Part shown: piece after piece, positions 23,212-30,607 of the stretch
How positions within the stretch are numbered: position 1 is the stretch's first letter
How the letters are laid out: each line of letters opens with the position of its first letter
Source of the DNA: Alphaproteobacteria bacterium
Lineage (GTDB): Bacteria; Pseudomonadota; Alphaproteobacteria; JAVJVX01
Assembly (NCBI GenBank): GCA_040220875.1
Contig: JAVJVX010000006.1
Span: forward strand, 186,001 to 250,000
DNA: 64,000 nucleotides
Direction of reading: 5' to 3'
Made by a program: the position numbers and the translations under genes
The notes under the pieces: generated by a model
The model's database searches: none
Told to the model about the DNA's origin: nothing
Seen by the model: only the letters and a program-made list of their open reading frames with translations

Positions 23212-24156
23212 TCAGCGGCCAGGGGCGCTCAGGTGTGAATAGATATCACTCACACCGTGGCGGTCGTACCAGGCCAGCATGTCGCGAATAGTGTCACGAA
23301 AGGATATTTGGGCTTTCCAGCCGAAATCGCGTTCGGTCAGGGACGGATCGAGAACCACCTCTGACACATCGTCATCACCTGCCGGGATGATCTTGACGGG
23401 CTCGGACAGTTCAATTCCCAGATAATCCACAACGGTATCGAAAATGTCCTTGATCGTGTTTCCGTGCCCGGTCGAAACATTATAGATGCCGGTGGGCGCC
23501 CCATCGGCCAGCACCTTGTGCATCAGGGCGAGGAAATCGCGCATGTCGAGGAAGTCGCGCACGGTTTCGGAACAAAAGCACGGCTTCCCTTCCTTGAGGC
23601 GCTTGTAAAAAGTGGGAATGGGGCCGATGGCGAGGCGCGGACCGGTTACATTGGCCAGCCTGAGCGAAACCACGGGCAGTTCCGCCAGGGCGAGGTAGTG
23701 TTCGCCCGCCGCCTTGGAAATTCCGTAACTGGTAAAAGGCGCCACGGGCGCGTCCACCGGAATAGGAACCGCAGCCGGCCGGCCATAACAGAGCGCTGTC
23801 TGAAAATTGACGAGCCGCCGGACGCCGGCCTTCCTGGCCGCGCGCGCCACATTGATCGTTCCCGCCACGTTGCTCGCAACATCCTCCAGCCAGTCATCGG
23901 GGTCCTTGTAGGCGGCCGCGCTGTGGATCACGTGTGTCGGGCGGAATGTCTCGAAAACGTGATCCACCAGATCGCCGTCCGCGACCGAACCCTCGTGCAC
24001 GATCAGCCCCTCGATCCCGGCCACAGCCGCCCGCTTGCCGGTGGCGAAATTGTCGAGGATGCAGACGTCGTGGCCGGCGGGCAGGAACTCCTCGATCAGG
24101 TTAGTGCCGAGGCAGCCAGCCCCGCCCGTGATCAAAAGTCGCATGGAGAGAGACAT
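23212..24156 (-). CDS. NAD-dependent UDP-uronate epimerase (WbmG/WbmH-like)
   Basis: This 314-residue extended SDR has GGAGCLG at 11-17 and a triad of Thr120 (FQTALCYG), Tyr144 and Lys148 (YGISK). It shares with its upstream neighbour (24165-25094) the segments YKDPDDW, FQTALCYG and RLANV.GPR, so the two are tandem paralogues. Pairs of such genes followed by an asparagine-synthase-like gene occur in the Bordetella wbm O-antigen locus, where they act on UDP-diacetamido-uronic acids. A C4 (or C5) epimerase role, for example gluco to galacto, is therefore the best guess. ATG 24144 is an alternative start. Confidence 0.83.
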   Translation of the reverse strand: MSLSMRLLITGGAGCLGTNLIEEFLPAGHDVCILDNFATGKRAAVAGIEGLIVHEGSVADGDLVDHVFETFRPTHVIHSAAAYKDPDDWLEDVASNVAGTINVARAARKAGVRRLVNFQTALCYGRPAAVPIPVDAPVAPFTSYGISKAAGEHYLALAELPVVSLRLANVTGPRLAIGPIPTFYKRLKEGKPCFCSETVRDFLDMRDFLALMHKVLADGAPTGIYNVSTGHGNTIKDIFDTVVDYLGIELSEPVKIIPAGDDDVSEVVLDPSLTERDFGWKAQISFRDTIRDMLAWYDRHGVSDIYSHLSAPGR

Positions 24157-24164
24157 GATGGCGG

Positions 24165-25094
24165 TTACTTATGCTTGAGGTGGGTATAGCCGCCATGGAC
24201 GCCGAACTCGGCGTAATACTCGACCCCGCGGCGCACGGTCTCCTCCAGCGACGTGAAGGAGATGTCTCCGAAATCGCGAAACGTGCGCGACGGATCGAGC
24301 AGGATGGACGCCGCGTCGTCGGGACCCAGTTCGCGGATTTCAGGTTCGGGGTAATCGTTCAGCTTGAGCGCCTTGACCACGGCGTCATACAGCTCGATGA
24401 TCGCGACATCCCCGCCCGACGAAAAATGATAGGCCCCGCTTCCCGTCCCATCGGCCGCTTTCACGGCGTACTTGGCGAGATCCCCCACATAGACGAAGTC
24501 TCGCCGTGATTCGGTGACGAAGCACTGTTTCCCTTCGGTGAGGCGCTGGTAGAAGATCGGCAGCGGGCCACTCACATTCCGCGGCCCGATCACGTTGGCA
24601 AGCCGGAAGGTAACGTAATCCAGCCCGGAAAGCCGAAGGAACTCTTCCGCCGCCGTCTTGGTGATGGCGTAGCTGGAATTGTCCGGGTTGATGGGATGAT
24701 CCAGCGTGACGGGCTGCTCCACCGGCTTCGTGCCGTAACAGAGCGCCGTCTGGAAATAGATGAAGCGGCCGACCTTGCTGTCACGCGCGGCGCGCACCAG
24801 GTTGGCGCCGCCCACCGTGTTTGTCAGCGCGTCGTTGTACCAGTCATCGGGGTCCTTGTAGGAGGCCGCGGTGTGGACCACCACGTCGGGCCTGAAGTCC
24901 CCCACAAGCTGATCGACCAGCGCCTTGTCGGCGATCGACCCCTCCACCAGGGTCAGGCGTTCCTGCGCCGGCAGGTGCTCGGGCCTGCCGGTCGCCAGAT
25001 TGTCGATGCTGAGGACTTCATCCCCCCGGGCCAGATGGCGCTCGGCAATGTGAGAGCCCACCTGTCCGAAGCCGCCGCTAATAAATACTTTCAT
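24165..25094 (-). CDS. NAD-dependent UDP-uronate epimerase (WbmG/WbmH-like), paralogue
   Basis: This protein of 309 residues starts at ATG 25094 behind AGGTTGGAC. GGFGQVG at 7-13, Thr116 (FQTALCYG) and Tyr142/Lys146 (YAITK) give the complete SDR triad. It differs from the 23212 copy in the C-terminal substrate domain (LPIFYQRLTEGKQCFV versus IPTFYKRLKEGKPCFC), so the two probably handle different stereocentres or different uronates. It lies between the amidotransferase gene and its paralogue, as in the Bordetella wbm cluster. Assignment of which copy does which epimerisation is not possible here. Confidence 0.83.
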   Translation of the reverse strand: MKVFISGGFGQVGSHIAERHLARGDEVLSIDNLATGRPEHLPAQERLTLVEGSIADKALVDQLVGDFRPDVVVHTAASYKDPDDWYNDALTNTVGGANLVRAARDSKVGRFIYFQTALCYGTKPVEQPVTLDHPINPDNSSYAITKTAAEEFLRLSGLDYVTFRLANVIGPRNVSGPLPIFYQRLTEGKQCFVTESRRDFVYVGDLAKYAVKAADGTGSGAYHFSSGGDVAIIELYDAVVKALKLNDYPEPEIRELGPDDAASILLDPSRTFRDFGDISFTSLEETVRRGVEYYAEFGVHGGYTHLKHK

Positions 25095-25149
25095 ACTTGT
25101 CCAACCTGCCGTGTCTCGTCCGCGAAAATCCCGTCGGGGCGCGCCCCGA

Positions 25150-27075
25150 TCAGCCCGCCGGCGCGTCGAGCATCTTCCGGTACTCGGCCGCCTTGTCATG
25201 GAATTGCTGATGCCACAGTTCGAGGCTCAGCAAGCCCCAGGTTTTGCGGGAAAAACGGGTTGCCTTGTCGAAGTTCCCCAATACCACGTCCGCGTTTATA
25301 AAGTCACGGCCCCGCGCCTTGGTGGAGCGGAAGATATCCTGTGTCATGTCGTGGAGCTCGCCCGAAAACCATTCCCTGAGGGGCACGGGGAAGCCCATCT
25401 TGTCGCGCCGCTCCAGAAGCGCCGCCGGCAAGACGTCGCTGTAGGCGTCCTTGATCATGTGTTTCATATGCCCCCCCTTGAACTTGACATCGGCCGGCAC
25501 CGTAGCGGCGAACTCGATGAGCGGATGGTCGAGGAAGGGCACCCGGCTTTCCAGGCCGTGCGCCATGCTCATGCGGTCCTCCACATGCAGCAGGGCCGGC
25601 AACAGACATTTGAAATCAAAATGGGTCATGCTGTCGAAATAGGCTTCCTTGCGCACGTTACGCTGGTTATTGAAAATGCTCTGGAAATTGCCGAAAACCG
25701 CGTCCTTGTCGAGCACACCCCAATCGACCTCATCCGTCATGTCGGCGGAACGATCGATCAGACGGAAATAGCGCTGGTCCAGATCCTCGAACAGGCCCTC
25801 GCGCCAGAAGCTCTTGATCAGCGGCTTGTACTCGCGCAGCACCCCGAGGTTGTTGATGATCGATTCGGGCGTCACAACGAAATTGCCGTTCTTGTGCGTC
25901 CCGTCGATCGCGGCCTTGATCGCCTGCTCGAAATAGGCCAGCAGATAGCGGGCGTACCCGCCGAATATCTCATCGCCTCCCTGGCCGCCAAGGACCACCT
26001 TCACGTGCTCGCTCGACAATCCTGACACCATGTATTGGGGGAAAGAGCCGGGACCGGCGACGGGCGTATCGAGGTGATAGATGACCTTTTCAATATTGTT
26101 ACGGAAATCCTCGGCCGTGATATCGACCTGATGAAGGGTCGAACCACATTGCCGGGCGACTTCCTCGGCGTAGGGGCTTTCGTCATACCCGGGAAAGCAG
26201 GTGAACTTGCCGTGATAGGCAGTGTTGTTATTTTCGTCATGACGCTTGGCGAGCAGCGCGATCAGGCTGGAATCGATCCCGCCACTCAGATAGGCACCCA
26301 CCGGCACGTCGCTTCTGAGATGCGTGGCAACGGAATCGTCGAGCAGCTCGTTGAGCCGGCGATGGAAGTATGAAGGCGTGTGATCGTAGTCGATCTCGTA
26401 ATGCACGTCCCAATAGCGCCAGGTCCTGATCTCGCCATCCTCGACGGAAAGCGCGTGGCCCGGCAGCAACTGCCGGACCCCTTCGAACAGCGTGTTTTCG
26501 CCGATGGTGTACTGGAAAGTCAGATATTCCGCGAAGGCGGCGGGCTCGGTCCGCACCTCTGGCATGACCGGCATCAGCGCCTTGATCTCGGACGCGAAAT
26601 ACAATGTGCCGCCGATCACCGTGTAATAGAACGGCTTGATCCCGAACCGGTCCCGCGCGGCCAGGAGCCGGCCGCGGCGATCGTCCCAAAGGGCAAAGGC
26701 GAACATGCCCCGCAAATGGGCGAGGCAGTCTGGGCCGTATTTTTCATAGGTGGCGAGAATCGTCTCGGTATCGGACGTGCTCCTGAATTGCCAATCCGGT
26801 GCCAGCGCCGCGCGTAGCTCCCGGTAATTGTAGATCTCGCCGTTATGCACGAGGACGGTGCCATTGGGGGCCCGCATCGGTTGCGCGCCCGACTCGCTCA
26901 GATCGATCACGCTGAGCCTGCGATGGGCGAAGCCGACACTCTCATTGCCGGCGCGCCATTCGCCCCTGCCGTCGGGGCCGCGATGGGCAATCAGTCCCCC
27001 CATCACTTCGAGCTTGCGCTGCAGCCCGGCTTGCGGGCGGCCTCCCAGATCAACGATTCCAGCTATGCCACACAT
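25150..27075 (-). CDS. Asparagine synthase-like glutamine amidotransferase (probable uronate amidation)
   Basis: This protein of 641 residues has an intact N-terminal class II glutaminase domain, with Cys2 as nucleophile (MCGIAGIVDLGG), HRGPDG and HNGEIYNYREL. A synthetase domain follows with the ATP-binding SGGIDSS (264-270) and GGQGGDEIFGGY. Free asparagine synthetase AsnB is a possible alternative. Placement inside the polysaccharide run, next to two WbmG/H-like epimerases, favours conversion of a uronic acid carboxylate to the uronamide with glutamine and ATP, as proposed for the Bordetella wbm gene of this family. Translation starts behind AAGAAG. Confidence 0.87.
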   Translation of the reverse strand: MCGIAGIVDLGGRPQAGLQRKLEVMGGLIAHRGPDGRGEWRAGNESVGFAHRRLSVIDLSESGAQPMRAPNGTVLVHNGEIYNYRELRAALAPDWQFRSTSDTETILATYEKYGPDCLAHLRGMFAFALWDDRRGRLLAARDRFGIKPFYYTVIGGTLYFASEIKALMPVMPEVRTEPAAFAEYLTFQYTIGENTLFEGVRQLLPGHALSVEDGEIRTWRYWDVHYEIDYDHTPSYFHRRLNELLDDSVATHLRSDVPVGAYLSGGIDSSLIALLAKRHDENNNTAYHGKFTCFPGYDESPYAEEVARQCGSTLHQVDITAEDFRNNIEKVIYHLDTPVAGPGSFPQYMVSGLSSEHVKVVLGGQGGDEIFGGYARYLLAYFEQAIKAAIDGTHKNGNFVVTPESIINNLGVLREYKPLIKSFWREGLFEDLDQRYFRLIDRSADMTDEVDWGVLDKDAVFGNFQSIFNNQRNVRKEAYFDSMTHFDFKCLLPALLHVEDRMSMAHGLESRVPFLDHPLIEFAATVPADVKFKGGHMKHMIKDAYSDVLPAALLERRDKMGFPVPLREWFSGELHDMTQDIFRSTKARGRDFINADVVLGNFDKATRFSRKTWGLLSLELWHQQFHDKAAEYRKMLDAPAG

Positions 27076-27096
27076 GTTTTTTTCTTCTTTGCTGCG

Positions 27097-28572
27097 TCAG
27101 ACTTGGATCGCGTAGGCGGCCAGCAGGTCTGGCGCCACGCGCTGCCAGTTGAAATGTTCGCGTGCGGCGCGCGCCGCATTGGCCCGGCAGCGGGCGCGGA
27201 GTGCCGGATCGGCCGCGATTTTCTTGAGCAGGGCGGAGAGCGCCGGCCCGTCGTCGAAATCCGTCACCATGCCCGTGCCGTCCGCCTCCAGAACCTGGCG
27301 CACATAGGCCAGATCGTTGCTCAGCACCATCAGCCCCGCATGCAGGTACTGCGACAGCTTATTCGGGCAGGCGTAGCGGTTGTTCATCGAGGACGGTGCG
27401 TAAGGGATGATTCCCACATCGGCCGGGGCGGCGGCCGCGATCAGCTCGTCCTCGGCAACACCGGGCAGAAAAAAGAGCGAGCGGTCATAGCAGGCGAGGC
27501 CCCGGGACTCGTGCCGCAACCGGTCCTTGTAGGAACTGTCCGGCCCGCGCAGGAACAGCACCGCGTTTTCGGGAGGATCGCGGTCCCAGGCCCGCACCAA
27601 TTCGTCGAGGCCTCGCTCCGCCGCGAGGCGGCCCTGGAACAGAAACCGCACCCGGCCGGCGGCGAGACTGTCCATTTCCTCGTCCGCCCGGGCGGCGCGC
27701 GTGGCGATGTAGGGTTCCGCGTTGGGCACGCTCCGGACATGATCCAGGCCATAGACCCGGGCCAGATGACCAGCCATCAGCGGGTTGACCGAGATCACCT
27801 CGTCCGCATCACCGATCAGCATTGCTTCATACACCGTAAAGAACCATCTGAAACTCGCGCCCACCTCGGGAAAGCTGTGCGGCCAGAATTCATGCGCGTC
27901 ATAGACGAGGCGCGCGCCGCTCCCGTCTTTCACGCTCGCCCCGGCGAGCAATGTGTCCAGATCGTTGCAATGGACGAACGCGAGCGAGCGCGGCAGCCGA
28001 TCTACGGCCTCGCGCAAGACCAGTGCGGCGCCGGCCACGTGCCGGATCTGCCAAAGGAGAAGACCCCAGTGAAACAGGCCGATCGCCCGCAACCATCGGC
28101 CCAGCCGGCGGCGGAGCCGATGGGGCCGGAGGCCGGCGCCGGCGGCGTCGCCTCCACGCCCTGTCGCTGGAGCCCCTGCCGATCTTATGAGTCCGAGGAC
28201 CAGATGGGCCGCGACTCCGCCCGTCATCACGAGCGCGACCAGGAAGCGACCCGGGGCCCGGGCCTGACCCGCACCGCGCCGCAGGGGCGCATATGCGCGG
28301 CGCCAGAGAAGCCGGATCAGGGACCGGGCCGTCGCGACGGTGGTCTGCATCTCCGGGGCGCAGCGCCGGACGGGGATACCGGGTGTCAGACTCTCGCCCC
28401 CTGGCCTAGTCCCGCCGTCATCGAGCCCGAGGACATACACATCGAAATACGGCCGGGCACTCTCGGCCTCCCAGCGGATCCGCGGATCGGCAGCGGGATC
28501 GTGGGCCGCCAGCATGGCCAGAACCGGCCGGATGGGCGACGCCGGCCTGAGATCGACAGACGACTGGGACAT
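27097..28572 (-). CDS. GT-B glycosyltransferase with internal hydrophobic insertion
   Basis: This protein of 491 residues starts at ATG 28572; GGAGGT lies immediately upstream with unusually short spacing, and a TTG at 28605 is the alternative. The N-domain begins RPVLAMLAAHDPAADPR. A Gly/Ala/Arg- and Leu-rich insertion (about 85-180) may associate with the membrane. The C-half has VYDAHEFWPHSFPEVG, FLFQGRLAAERGLDELV and YACPNKLSQYLHAGL, shared with the 8203-10368 enzyme. It is the first structural gene after the antiterminator, so it may add an early sugar. The start lies 36 bases after an ops-like motif. Confidence 0.82.
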   Translation of the reverse strand: MSQSSVDLRPASPIRPVLAMLAAHDPAADPRIRWEAESARPYFDVYVLGLDDGGTRPGGESLTPGIPVRRCAPEMQTTVATARSLIRLLWRRAYAPLRRGAGQARAPGRFLVALVMTGGVAAHLVLGLIRSAGAPATGRGGDAAGAGLRPHRLRRRLGRWLRAIGLFHWGLLLWQIRHVAGAALVLREAVDRLPRSLAFVHCNDLDTLLAGASVKDGSGARLVYDAHEFWPHSFPEVGASFRWFFTVYEAMLIGDADEVISVNPLMAGHLARVYGLDHVRSVPNAEPYIATRAARADEEMDSLAAGRVRFLFQGRLAAERGLDELVRAWDRDPPENAVLFLRGPDSSYKDRLRHESRGLACYDRSLFFLPGVAEDELIAAAAPADVGIIPYAPSSMNNRYACPNKLSQYLHAGLMVLSNDLAYVRQVLEADGTGMVTDFDDGPALSALLKKIAADPALRARCRANAARAAREHFNWQRVAPDLLAAYAIQV

Positions 28573-28688
28573 GACCTCCGTGCACCCCGGGGTTCGAGCG
28601 CGCAATGGCTACCGCAGACCGGGTGACGCGCCCCAGCCGGCTTTGGTCTTCAATTTCATCCCGCCTGTTCCGGCGGGATATCGGGCGG
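28573..28688 (-). promoter_or_regulatory. Leader between the rfaH-like gene and the polysaccharide genes, with ops-like motif
   Basis: On the minus strand this 116-base leader contains TGCGGTAGC (28616-28608), matching the E. coli ops core GGCGGTAG at 7 of 8 positions. It also holds an 8-bp inverted repeat, ATCCCGCC/GGCGGGAT (28658-28679), just after the rfaH-like stop, without a T-run. Such elements recruit RfaH to the elongating polymerase. Function here is a hypothesis based on motif and position. Confidence 0.45.
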
Positions 28689-29186
28689 TCATACCGTTTG
28701 TATGGCCACTTCCGGCACGCGCACCTTGACCGCGCGCCCCATAAGATCCAGAAGCACGACCACCCGTTCGTGATCGGCCAGTTGCTGCAGCCGGCCGATC
28801 CATTCGCGAAACGGGCCGGCCGTCACGCGCACCCGGTCTCCCGGCCGCGCCAGGGGCGCGGCGGCACGGCGCTGCAATTCGCCGGTTTCTGCCATTTCCA
28901 TCAGATCCTCGACAAGCCCCGGGGGGACCGCCGCGGGCTGCTCGCCGAAACGCACCAGGTCACGCACGCCCCGGGTCGAGAGAATCTTGCGCCACCCGTC
29001 GCGCGCCGGATCGAGACTGATGAAAAGATAGCCCGGAAAAAGCGGACGAAAGACCTGGCTTTGGCGGCGAGCATGCCGGCGAAGCTTACGGTAGCCCGGC
29101 AGGAAAACCGCGAACCCCTGCCGCCGGAGATGGGCTTCGGCCCGGTTTTCGCCATTGGGCCGGGTTTGAACGACGAACCAGCGCAT
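28689..29186 (-). CDS. NusG-family antiterminator, RfaH-like
   Basis: This protein of 165 residues has an NGN domain starting MRWFVVQTRPNGENRAEAHL, with RPLFPGYLFISLD as its characteristic strand. A C-terminal KOW domain (about 108-160) follows, with PGDRVRVTAGPF and VVVLLDLMGRAVKVRVP. It binds RNA polymerase and reduces pausing and polarity in long operons. A specialised NusG paralogue at the head of a ~25-kb polysaccharide run is the classic RfaH/UpxY arrangement. The ATG at 29186 overlaps the MarR-type gene's stop, so regulator and antiterminator are co-produced. The housekeeping nusG is expected elsewhere, beside secE. Confidence 0.9.
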   Translation of the reverse strand: MRWFVVQTRPNGENRAEAHLRRQGFAVFLPGYRKLRRHARRQSQVFRPLFPGYLFISLDPARDGWRKILSTRGVRDLVRFGEQPAAVPPGLVEDLMEMAETGELQRRAAAPLARPGDRVRVTAGPFREWIGRLQQLADHERVVVLLDLMGRAVKVRVPEVAIQTV

Positions 29187-29929
29187 CACGTCCCGGCCCC
29201 TTGGTCAGAACCCGGACGCCGACTGATGCCGAGGAGCGGTAACGTGAAAACATCCTCAGGCGCCATGGCCGTCCCCGGCAGCGCGTCGAGCACATCGTCA
29301 AAAACAGCCTGGGGGCGGGCCATGTCGGTCACCAGCACACCGACGCGCCGGCCGGGGGCGGCCAGCGCCAGGGCAGCCTCCAGGGTTGATACCACGGGCG
29401 TGCCGCCGCAGTTCTCGCGCCTTGGCGCGGCCTCGACGACGGCCAGAATCCTGACGCCGGTTTCCCGCGCGCTCAGGATCGCGGCCTCGGCAAGTTCGCT
29501 GTCGCCAACCAGAATAAGCTGCGTCCGGCCGTGCCGGGTGGCCGCCTCGAACAGGGCCGTGCACTGCTGGCGCGCATTGCGAAAGAATTCCAGGGAGGAC
29601 TGCAGATATTCCACCGTCAGCCGGCCCTTTTCGGCGAAGCCTGCCGGTGTCAGATAATAGGCGTAACGATTGAGAGGGACTTGGCTGACCTTGATCAGCC
29701 CCTTGCGGACACAGCGCTTGAGATAGGCGTTGACCAGGCCGAGCGCGATCCCCACCTCGCTTGAGATCCGCCGCTGGGACACCTTGTGGTCCCGGTCCAC
29801 GGCGTTGAGCACGCCGAGCATGATTTCCCGCTCGCGCGCGCTCCCCAACCCCTTGTCGAGGGATGTGCGTGCCAAGAACCGCCCCCTTTGCGCCACCCGG
29901 CTCGACGCACACGCCGGGCCCGGCTCCAT
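29186..29929 (-). CDS. MarR family EPS-associated winged-helix regulator with extra C-terminal domain
   Basis: The protein of up to 247 residues has an N-terminal winged helix (about 35-110) matching the EPS-associated MarR family: a SQRRISSEVGIALGLVNAYL recognition region, then KGLIKVSQVPLNRYAYYLTP and EKGRLTVEYL. The remaining ~115 residues include LILVGDSELAEAAI and VRILAVVEA and look like an added Rossmann-type ligand domain, not usual for the family. Start choice is open: ATG 29929 has no clear ribosome site, while TTG 29875 follows AGGGGG by 6 bases. Two inverted repeats overlap its promoter, suggesting autoregulation. Confidence 0.85.
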   Translation of the reverse strand: MEPGPACASSRVAQRGRFLARTSLDKGLGSAREREIMLGVLNAVDRDHKVSQRRISSEVGIALGLVNAYLKRCVRKGLIKVSQVPLNRYAYYLTPAGFAEKGRLTVEYLQSSLEFFRNARQQCTALFEAATRHGRTQLILVGDSELAEAAILSARETGVRILAVVEAAPRRENCGGTPVVSTLEAALALAAPGRRVGVLVTDMARPQAVFDDVLDALPGTAMAPEDVFTLPLLGISRRPGSDQGAGT

Positions 29930-29930
29930 T

Positions 29931-29945
29931 GTTCATGAAATGAAC
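29931..29945. promoter_or_regulatory. Inverted repeat O2, candidate operator
   Basis: GTTCATGAAATGAAC consists of 6-bp arms GTTCAT/ATGAAC around a 3-base spacer. It lies just upstream of ATG 29929 and downstream of the predicted -10, where a bound repressor would block the polymerase. It shares GTTCA and AAATGAAC with the second copy at 29964-29978. Confidence 0.6.
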
Positions 29946-29958
29946 GCCACCGTCCGCC

Positions 29959-29988
29959 ATTATGTTCAGAAAATGAACGGAAAGGCAA
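29959..29988 (-). promoter_or_regulatory. Predicted sigma-70 promoter of the MarR-EPS/rfaH-like polysaccharide transcript
   Basis: On the minus strand, TTGCCT (29988-29983) and CATAAT (29964-29959) are separated by 18 bases. Transcription would start near 29952. The repeat at 29964-29978 fills most of the spacer. Confidence 0.5.
29964..29978. promoter_or_regulatory. Inverted repeat O1, candidate operator within the promoter spacer
   Basis: GTTCAGAAAATGAAC has 5-bp arms GTTCA/TGAAC. Its centre is 33 bp from that of the other copy, about three helical turns, so two dimers could bind the same DNA face. Confidence 0.6.
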
Positions 29989-29998
29989 CCGCCGGATT

Positions 29999-30607
29999 TC
30001 AGCGATTCCGGGGGGCTCCCCGGGGGTGCGCTCGATCGGGTGGGGCGCCGGTGGCCGGTTCGAGAGCGCCCGCGACCAGCCGTTTCAGGCTGCCCCCCTC
30101 GTAGCGGCAGGCGCGAATGCCCGCCCGTGCGGCCGCCTCCTGATCGCGATCCGCGTCGCCGACGAGGACGCTGCGCACCGGATCCACAGGCCAGTCGCGA
30201 CAGGCGGCGAGGATCAGTCCCGGCGCCGGCTTGCGGCAGTCGCAAGGACCCGTGAAGGGACCGCTGCCGGCCTCCGGATGATGCGGGCAATAGTAGAAGG
30301 CGTCCACATGGGCCCCTTGCCTGGCGAGTTCGCGCGTCATCCAGTGGTGCAGCGCTTCAACATCGGCGGTCGAGAAGAAACCCCGCGCCACGCCCGACTG
30401 GTTGGTGACGACGAAGACCAGCCAGCCCCGATCGTTGGCGTATCGGATGGCGGCCGGCGCATCGGGCATCCAGACGACATCGGCCGGACGAAAGACATAG
30501 CCGTGATCCCGAATCAGCGTGCCGTCACGATCGAAGAAGATCGCCGGACGGGTCGCCGAGGCAGGTTTGGCGGCATCAGGGGCCGAAGGCTCATGTCGGA
30601 CGGGCAA
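29999..30607 (-). CDS. GmhB-like HAD phosphatase (heptose bisphosphate or sugar phosphatase)
   Basis: This protein of 202 residues has HAD motif I FFDRDGTL with nucleophile Asp26 and acid Asp28, motif II VVTNQSG and motif IV VGDADRDQEAA. It also carries the GmhB zinc site Cys107-x-His109 and Cys122-x-Cys124. In LPS core synthesis GmhB removes the C7 phosphate of D,D-heptose 1,7-bisphosphate; histidinol-phosphate phosphatases share the fold. Other heptose genes are not visible here, so the substrate is unsure. The only plausible start is TTG 30607. The C-terminal tail is Pro/Arg-rich and ends just upstream of the predicted MarR-EPS promoter. Confidence 0.82.
   Translation of the reverse strand: MPVRHEPSAPDAAKPASATRPAIFFDRDGTLIRDHGYVFRPADVVWMPDAPAAIRYANDRGWLVFVVTNQSGVARGFFSTADVEALHHWMTRELARQGAHVDAFYYCPHHPEAGSGPFTGPCDCRKPAPGLILAACRDWPVDPVRSVLVGDADRDQEAAARAGIRACRYEGGSLKRLVAGALEPATGAPPDRAHPRGAPRNR

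Follow-up and report, generated by a model that had tools for sequence, protein, structure and literature searches.

Two 15-letter inverted repeats, GTTCATGAAATGAAC (29931–29945) and GTTCAGAAAATGAAC (29964–29978), lie 33 bp apart, centre to centre, at the promoter of a regulator gene in an exopolysaccharide (EPS) locus, and they are the only exact GTTCA-N5-TGAAC matches in the window, the whole 64-kb stretch of alphaproteobacterial DNA that was analysed. Since the same word precedes the matching gene in most relatives across the phylum and occurs almost nowhere else in their genomes, we predict that the palindromes are the docking sites of the regulator, and sequence comparison makes it very likely that the protein encoded downstream binds them and represses its own gene together with the EPS operon. 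Autoregulatory operators are already known as a kind, and what would be new here is an operator for TIGR04176-type (MarR_EPS) regulators. In a search of the open-access literature by family name and accession, we found no report of a TIGR04176 DNA target, which is not proof of novelty, and only incidental mentions of the family, for instance in a comment on RNA-seq data from Acidithiobacillus caldus (PMC10599003).

Twin palindromes at the regulator promoter

A promoter scan of positions 29800–30100 returned a single sigma-70-like site (0 in 50 shuffles), running on the minus strand from 29988 to 29959, with the −35 hexamer TTGCCT (29983–29988), the −10 hexamer CATAAT (29959–29964), a spacer of 18 bp and an inferred transcription start at about 29952; the regulator gene that it serves lies on the same strand. 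Given these hexamers, the putative core operator O1 (29964–29978; GTTCATTTTCTGAAC on the minus strand) occupies the spacer and extends onto the first base of the −10, and the putative accessory operator O2 (29931–29945; GTTCATTTCATGAAC on the minus strand) lies just past the inferred start, at about +8 to +22 of the transcript. Most orthologues have an equivalent of O1 within the spacer. The first-pass annotation had described two repeats with this centre spacing, one between −35 and −10 and the other just after the start of transcription, and both the sites and their placement agree with the scanned promoter. A conserved palindrome overlapping the promoter of a regulator gene is what is expected of an autoregulatory operator. 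The gene itself (29186–29929, minus strand) probably starts at the TTG at 29875 rather than at the ATG at 29929, because a Shine-Dalgarno-like GGGGG (AAAGGGGGCGG) stands ahead of the TTG and the resulting protein fits the N-termini of the orthologues.

The exact pattern occurs three times in the 2.54-Mb (2,538,109-bp) genome, namely the two promoter copies and one in secF, and the reversed control pattern has 0 matches there. With only one stray exact copy, the many random genomic copies that had been named as grounds for discarding the idea are not found. The secF copy was considered as a second target and rejected, as it lies inside the reading frame and without promoter context; copies with one mismatch (46 further places, vs 9 for the reversed control) are not claimed as sites. 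Because the window genome holds no second operator site, its predicted regulon is the regulator/EPS operon alone.

A genome scan yielded 49 orthologues in Hyphomicrobiales, Rhodospirillales-like and other alphaproteobacteria; of 58 genomes sampled as relatives of the window genome, none was closer than class. Each of the 49 has, in the 220 bp upstream, one or more sites that agree at 9 or more of the 10 positions, and 39 carry two or more (38 with two, one with three). Exact copies number 75 in the 10.6 kb upstream of the orthologues vs 4 in 716 kb of flanking sequence, being about 1,270-fold denser, and the consensus is GTTCAYGNCRTGAAC, with nearly all of the information in the arms. In the commonest layout, an operator is followed after 6 nt by cTTGAC, which abuts a second operator and then gngcTAt. 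Here the core operator occupies the spacer, with its accessory partner upstream, in most cases at 27 bp; this spacing is found in 27 of the orthologues with two or more sites. A second layout also has the core in the spacer, with the accessory site downstream at 22–24 bp (L053, L058, L059, L072–L075). The window follows this downstream-accessory layout with an atypical spacing of 33 bp, probably about one helical turn more. The two-dimer repressor geometry proposed in the first-pass annotation recurs, although the usual spacing is 27 bp with the accessory site upstream or 22–24 bp with it downstream, and single sites are common among distant members. One orthologue locus (L070, 7594–7642) carries three successive operators at 17 bp centre to centre, and two otherwise typical alphaproteobacterial regulator loci (L052, L069) lie on contigs assigned to Planctomycetota and Bacteroidetes MAGs, through either mis-binning or transfer.

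The comparison was widened to 82 distinct upstream regions from whole genomes, picked by homology alone, with 855 control windows from the same loci. The upstream regions comprise 48 with N5, 18 with N4, one with N0 and 15 without such a site within 250 bp, vs seven N5 and 0 N4 among the control windows. The repeat is thus present upstream of essentially all close and most distant orthologues, where its absence would have spoken against the original proposal. Short canonical TIGR04176 members of other classes have one N5 copy, typically around +1 or immediately ahead of the start codon, and in five genomes of other classes (G135, G143, G167, G193, G316) the copy at the regulator gene is the sole one in the genome. 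No palindrome was found at the regulator in two high-scoring alphaproteobacterial members (G291, G138). At a further locus (L080 in G020), GTTCATGAAC stands upstream with its arms directly abutting, possibly as a third spacing variant. An isolated GTTCAYNNNRTGAAC copy is a poor predictor of the regulator, as 53 of 142 genomes in a class-wide scan have one and most of the listed loci lack the gene; close palindrome pairs are far more telling.

The N4 form accompanies a distinct class of proteins, found in one alphaproteobacterial family, in which a TIGR04176-type winged helix is joined to PUA-like, ATP-sulfurylase and APS-kinase domains (Pfam on L098, L099). These PAPS-synthase fusions (L098–L105 and L186–L194, in genomes G022, G186, G233, G258, G276, G285, G288 and others) have the 14-bp GTTCA-N4-TGAAC in 16 of 16 cases (Fisher p = 1.8e-13, not phylogeny-corrected), and some of their genes carry it twice, about 48 bp apart. 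Two short members of the same bacterial family also have N4. As the sampled fusions all come from this one family, the covariation of N4/N5 with protein class may rest on few evolutionary events. The fusion is a candidate self-regulating enzyme on this sequence evidence, and since a few fusions exceed the TIGR04176 cut-off, they could be misnamed under the NCBI family name. A reading of this class of about 700 amino acids as a CapD fusion was rejected in view of the Pfam assignment to ATP sulfurylase and APS kinase.

A winged-helix regulator with a predicted Rossmann-like domain

The window regulator was predicted to consist of a winged helix, a long helix and a Rossmann-like C-terminal domain, and its AlphaFold model (mean pLDDT 87, 46-sequence alignment) has a winged helix, a 38-residue helix and an alpha/beta domain. 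The N-terminal winged helix is homologous to TIGR04176 (E = 9.4e-17, profile positions 3–99 of 105, 93 residues aligned), although the protein scores 61–63 bits, under the curated whole-protein cut-off of 88. The sole Pfam match at E ≤ 0.001 is HTH_24 (PF13412), a generic winged helix, and no MarR model matched at that threshold. The description of the protein as an EPS-associated MarR-type regulator is borne out by the EPS locus, with glycosyltransferase, amidotransferase and epimerase genes directly behind, and by the TIGR04176-homologous winged helix, with the cut-off and the Pfam result as caveats. Like the window protein, most of the true TIGR04176 members sampled are preceded by the same operator word, although the window protein has the extra Rossmann-like domain and twin rather than single operators.

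The C-terminal domain of the model aligns with the Rossmann-like domain of WbaP (PDB 8t53; Z = 9.9, 2.6 Å, 92 residues) and with chains of Rex (Z of about 8–8.7 over about 100 residues). Foldseek E-values are 0.003 at best and middling Z values are common, and so this resemblance is a fold lead rather than homology; a PDB sequence search returned no significant relative of the regulator among solved structures. Rex-type redox repressors share with the window protein, at the level of predicted fold, the two-domain plan of winged helix and Rossmann domain, but the window regulator has the long connecting helix, and its sequence gives no significant match among solved structures. WbaP, a phosphoglycosyl transferase, is likewise an EPS/O-antigen protein, although the window regulator lacks its membrane and catalytic parts and the relationship is by predicted fold only.

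Candidate binders and the mode of control

That the adjacent protein is the binder is argued by the way N4 and N5 track protein class and by the five genomes in which the palindrome is unique to the regulator. These observations also weigh against the idea that another transcription factor, such as a global or EPS regulator encoded elsewhere, binds the palindromes, for which the few additional pattern copies in some genomes could speak. Since the sites follow the regulator gene in several proteobacterial classes that differ greatly in gene content, are often genome-unique and shift their half-site spacing together with the type of protein encoded next to them, we regard another factor as improbable. 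LexA is a particular case, because alphaproteobacterial LexA boxes read GTTC-N7-GTTC and share with our palindromes the 4-bp half-word and the N7 distance. In our palindromes, however, the second half reads GAAC and is thus an inverted rather than a direct copy, conservation covers 5-bp arms (GTTCA/TGAAC), and non-alphaproteobacterial classes retain the motif, which leaves SOS operators a negligible prospect. It is equally far-fetched that the palindromes are functionless chance repeats: 10 fixed bases do arise singly, as in secF and as isolated copies in many genomes, but the upstream enrichment among orthologues and the conserved placement relative to TTGAC and the −10 refute this.

A different question is whether the encoded protein, once bound, mainly activates or has a dual role, for instance remodelling the spacer in the manner of MerR-type proteins. 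In alphaproteobacteria the spacer is occupied by the core site, and such a site could in principle serve an activator, yet the spacers have an ordinary length of 17–18 bp between recognisable −35 and −10 hexamers, and operators of other classes lie close to +1 or immediately ahead of the start codon, both of which are typical of repression. Mainly activating or dual control is therefore unlikely, if somewhat less so than binding by another factor. Under the preferred reading, in which the downstream-encoded regulator represses, one winged-helix dimer would bind each GTTCA-N5-TGAAC, and as the spacer and the start region would both be occupied, dimers at O1 and O2 would block RNA polymerase by occlusion and silence the regulator gene and the EPS operon. 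Repression would lift on a signal for which the C-terminal Rossmann-like domain is the probable sensor.

The RfaH-like gene and the ops element of the EPS operon

An RfaH/NusG-paralogue gene (28689–29189, minus strand) shares 4 bp with the end of the regulator gene, and by tblastn an RfaH-like gene stands at the same distance behind the regulator in most orthologue loci. The RfaH-like protein of the window scores 128.9 bits against RfaH (TIGR01955), under the curated cut-off of 144.5. Between this gene and the first glycosyltransferase gene lies an ops-type element, TCACCCGGTCTGCGGTAGC (28608–28626, minus strand), followed by genes for a glycosyltransferase, an asparagine-synthase-like amidotransferase and two sugar epimerases/dehydratases (23212–28605, minus strand). 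The element is the sole exact CACCCG-N4-GCGGYAGC in its genome, and its 11-mer end differs, with CAT instead of NTG (two mismatches). An ops/JUMPstart-type GCGGTAGCNTG between the RfaH-like and EPS genes is found with at most one mismatch in 38 of 48 orthologue loci, at +1050 to +1350 (about +1126 to +1259 from the regulator match in L023–L070), and exactly in 35 of the 48 vs three exact copies in 713 kb elsewhere. A conserved TCACCCGGACT stretch precedes the element. A conserved RNA hairpin before ops was considered; as RNAalifold gave three nearly invariant pairs and no covariation, we make no claim of RNA structure.

The window element shares its core with the ops of enterobacterial RfaH. 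The ops core GCGGTAGC stands in the leader of the window polysaccharide genes beside an RfaH paralogue, as the enterobacterial system has an RfaH-like protein and this core before long polysaccharide gene sets; here, in contrast, the RfaH-like gene is inside the operon, ops lies behind it and TCACCCGGACT stands ahead of ops. Informative operator sites distant from the regulator are few. Some occur in leaders that continue into ops (L037, L049, L162 (= L125), L179 (= L114)); downstream of the sites in L037, L049 and L179, and of a site pair in L163, the genes include nucleotide-sugar epimerases, a DegT aminotransferase and an asparagine-synthase-like amidotransferase. In six TIGR04176 members that lack the operator (L180, L181, L185, L195, L217, L222), it is the regulator gene that an ops-like element precedes.

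From the arrangement of these elements, the operon is probably under double control, by the operator at initiation and by the RfaH-like protein and ops: once transcription has started, the co-transcribed RfaH-like protein would be recruited at the ops element behind its own gene and carry polymerase through the EPS genes. The ligand and this recruitment step, which we infer, are less certain than binding and repression by the regulator. With even confidence for and against, we propose a phylum-wide two-step EPS module in which a winged-helix repressor would gate initiation at GTTCA-N5-TGAAC, its Rossmann-like domain would act as the sensor of a nucleotide sugar or a cofactor, and the RfaH paralogue from the same transcript would then join at its own downstream ops, with the PAPS-synthase fusion of one alphaproteobacterial family regulating itself via a one-base-shorter operator.

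A 2020 study of RfaH evolution described the recruitment modes of operon-encoded paralogues as unknown (PMC7593976), and the RfaH-ops arrangement supplies a candidate recruitment site for such operon-encoded NusG paralogues. TIGR04176 regulators, named for their association with exopolysaccharide loci, are found in many environmental proteobacteria, and the predicted family-wide operator would make their binding, regulon and ligand directly testable.
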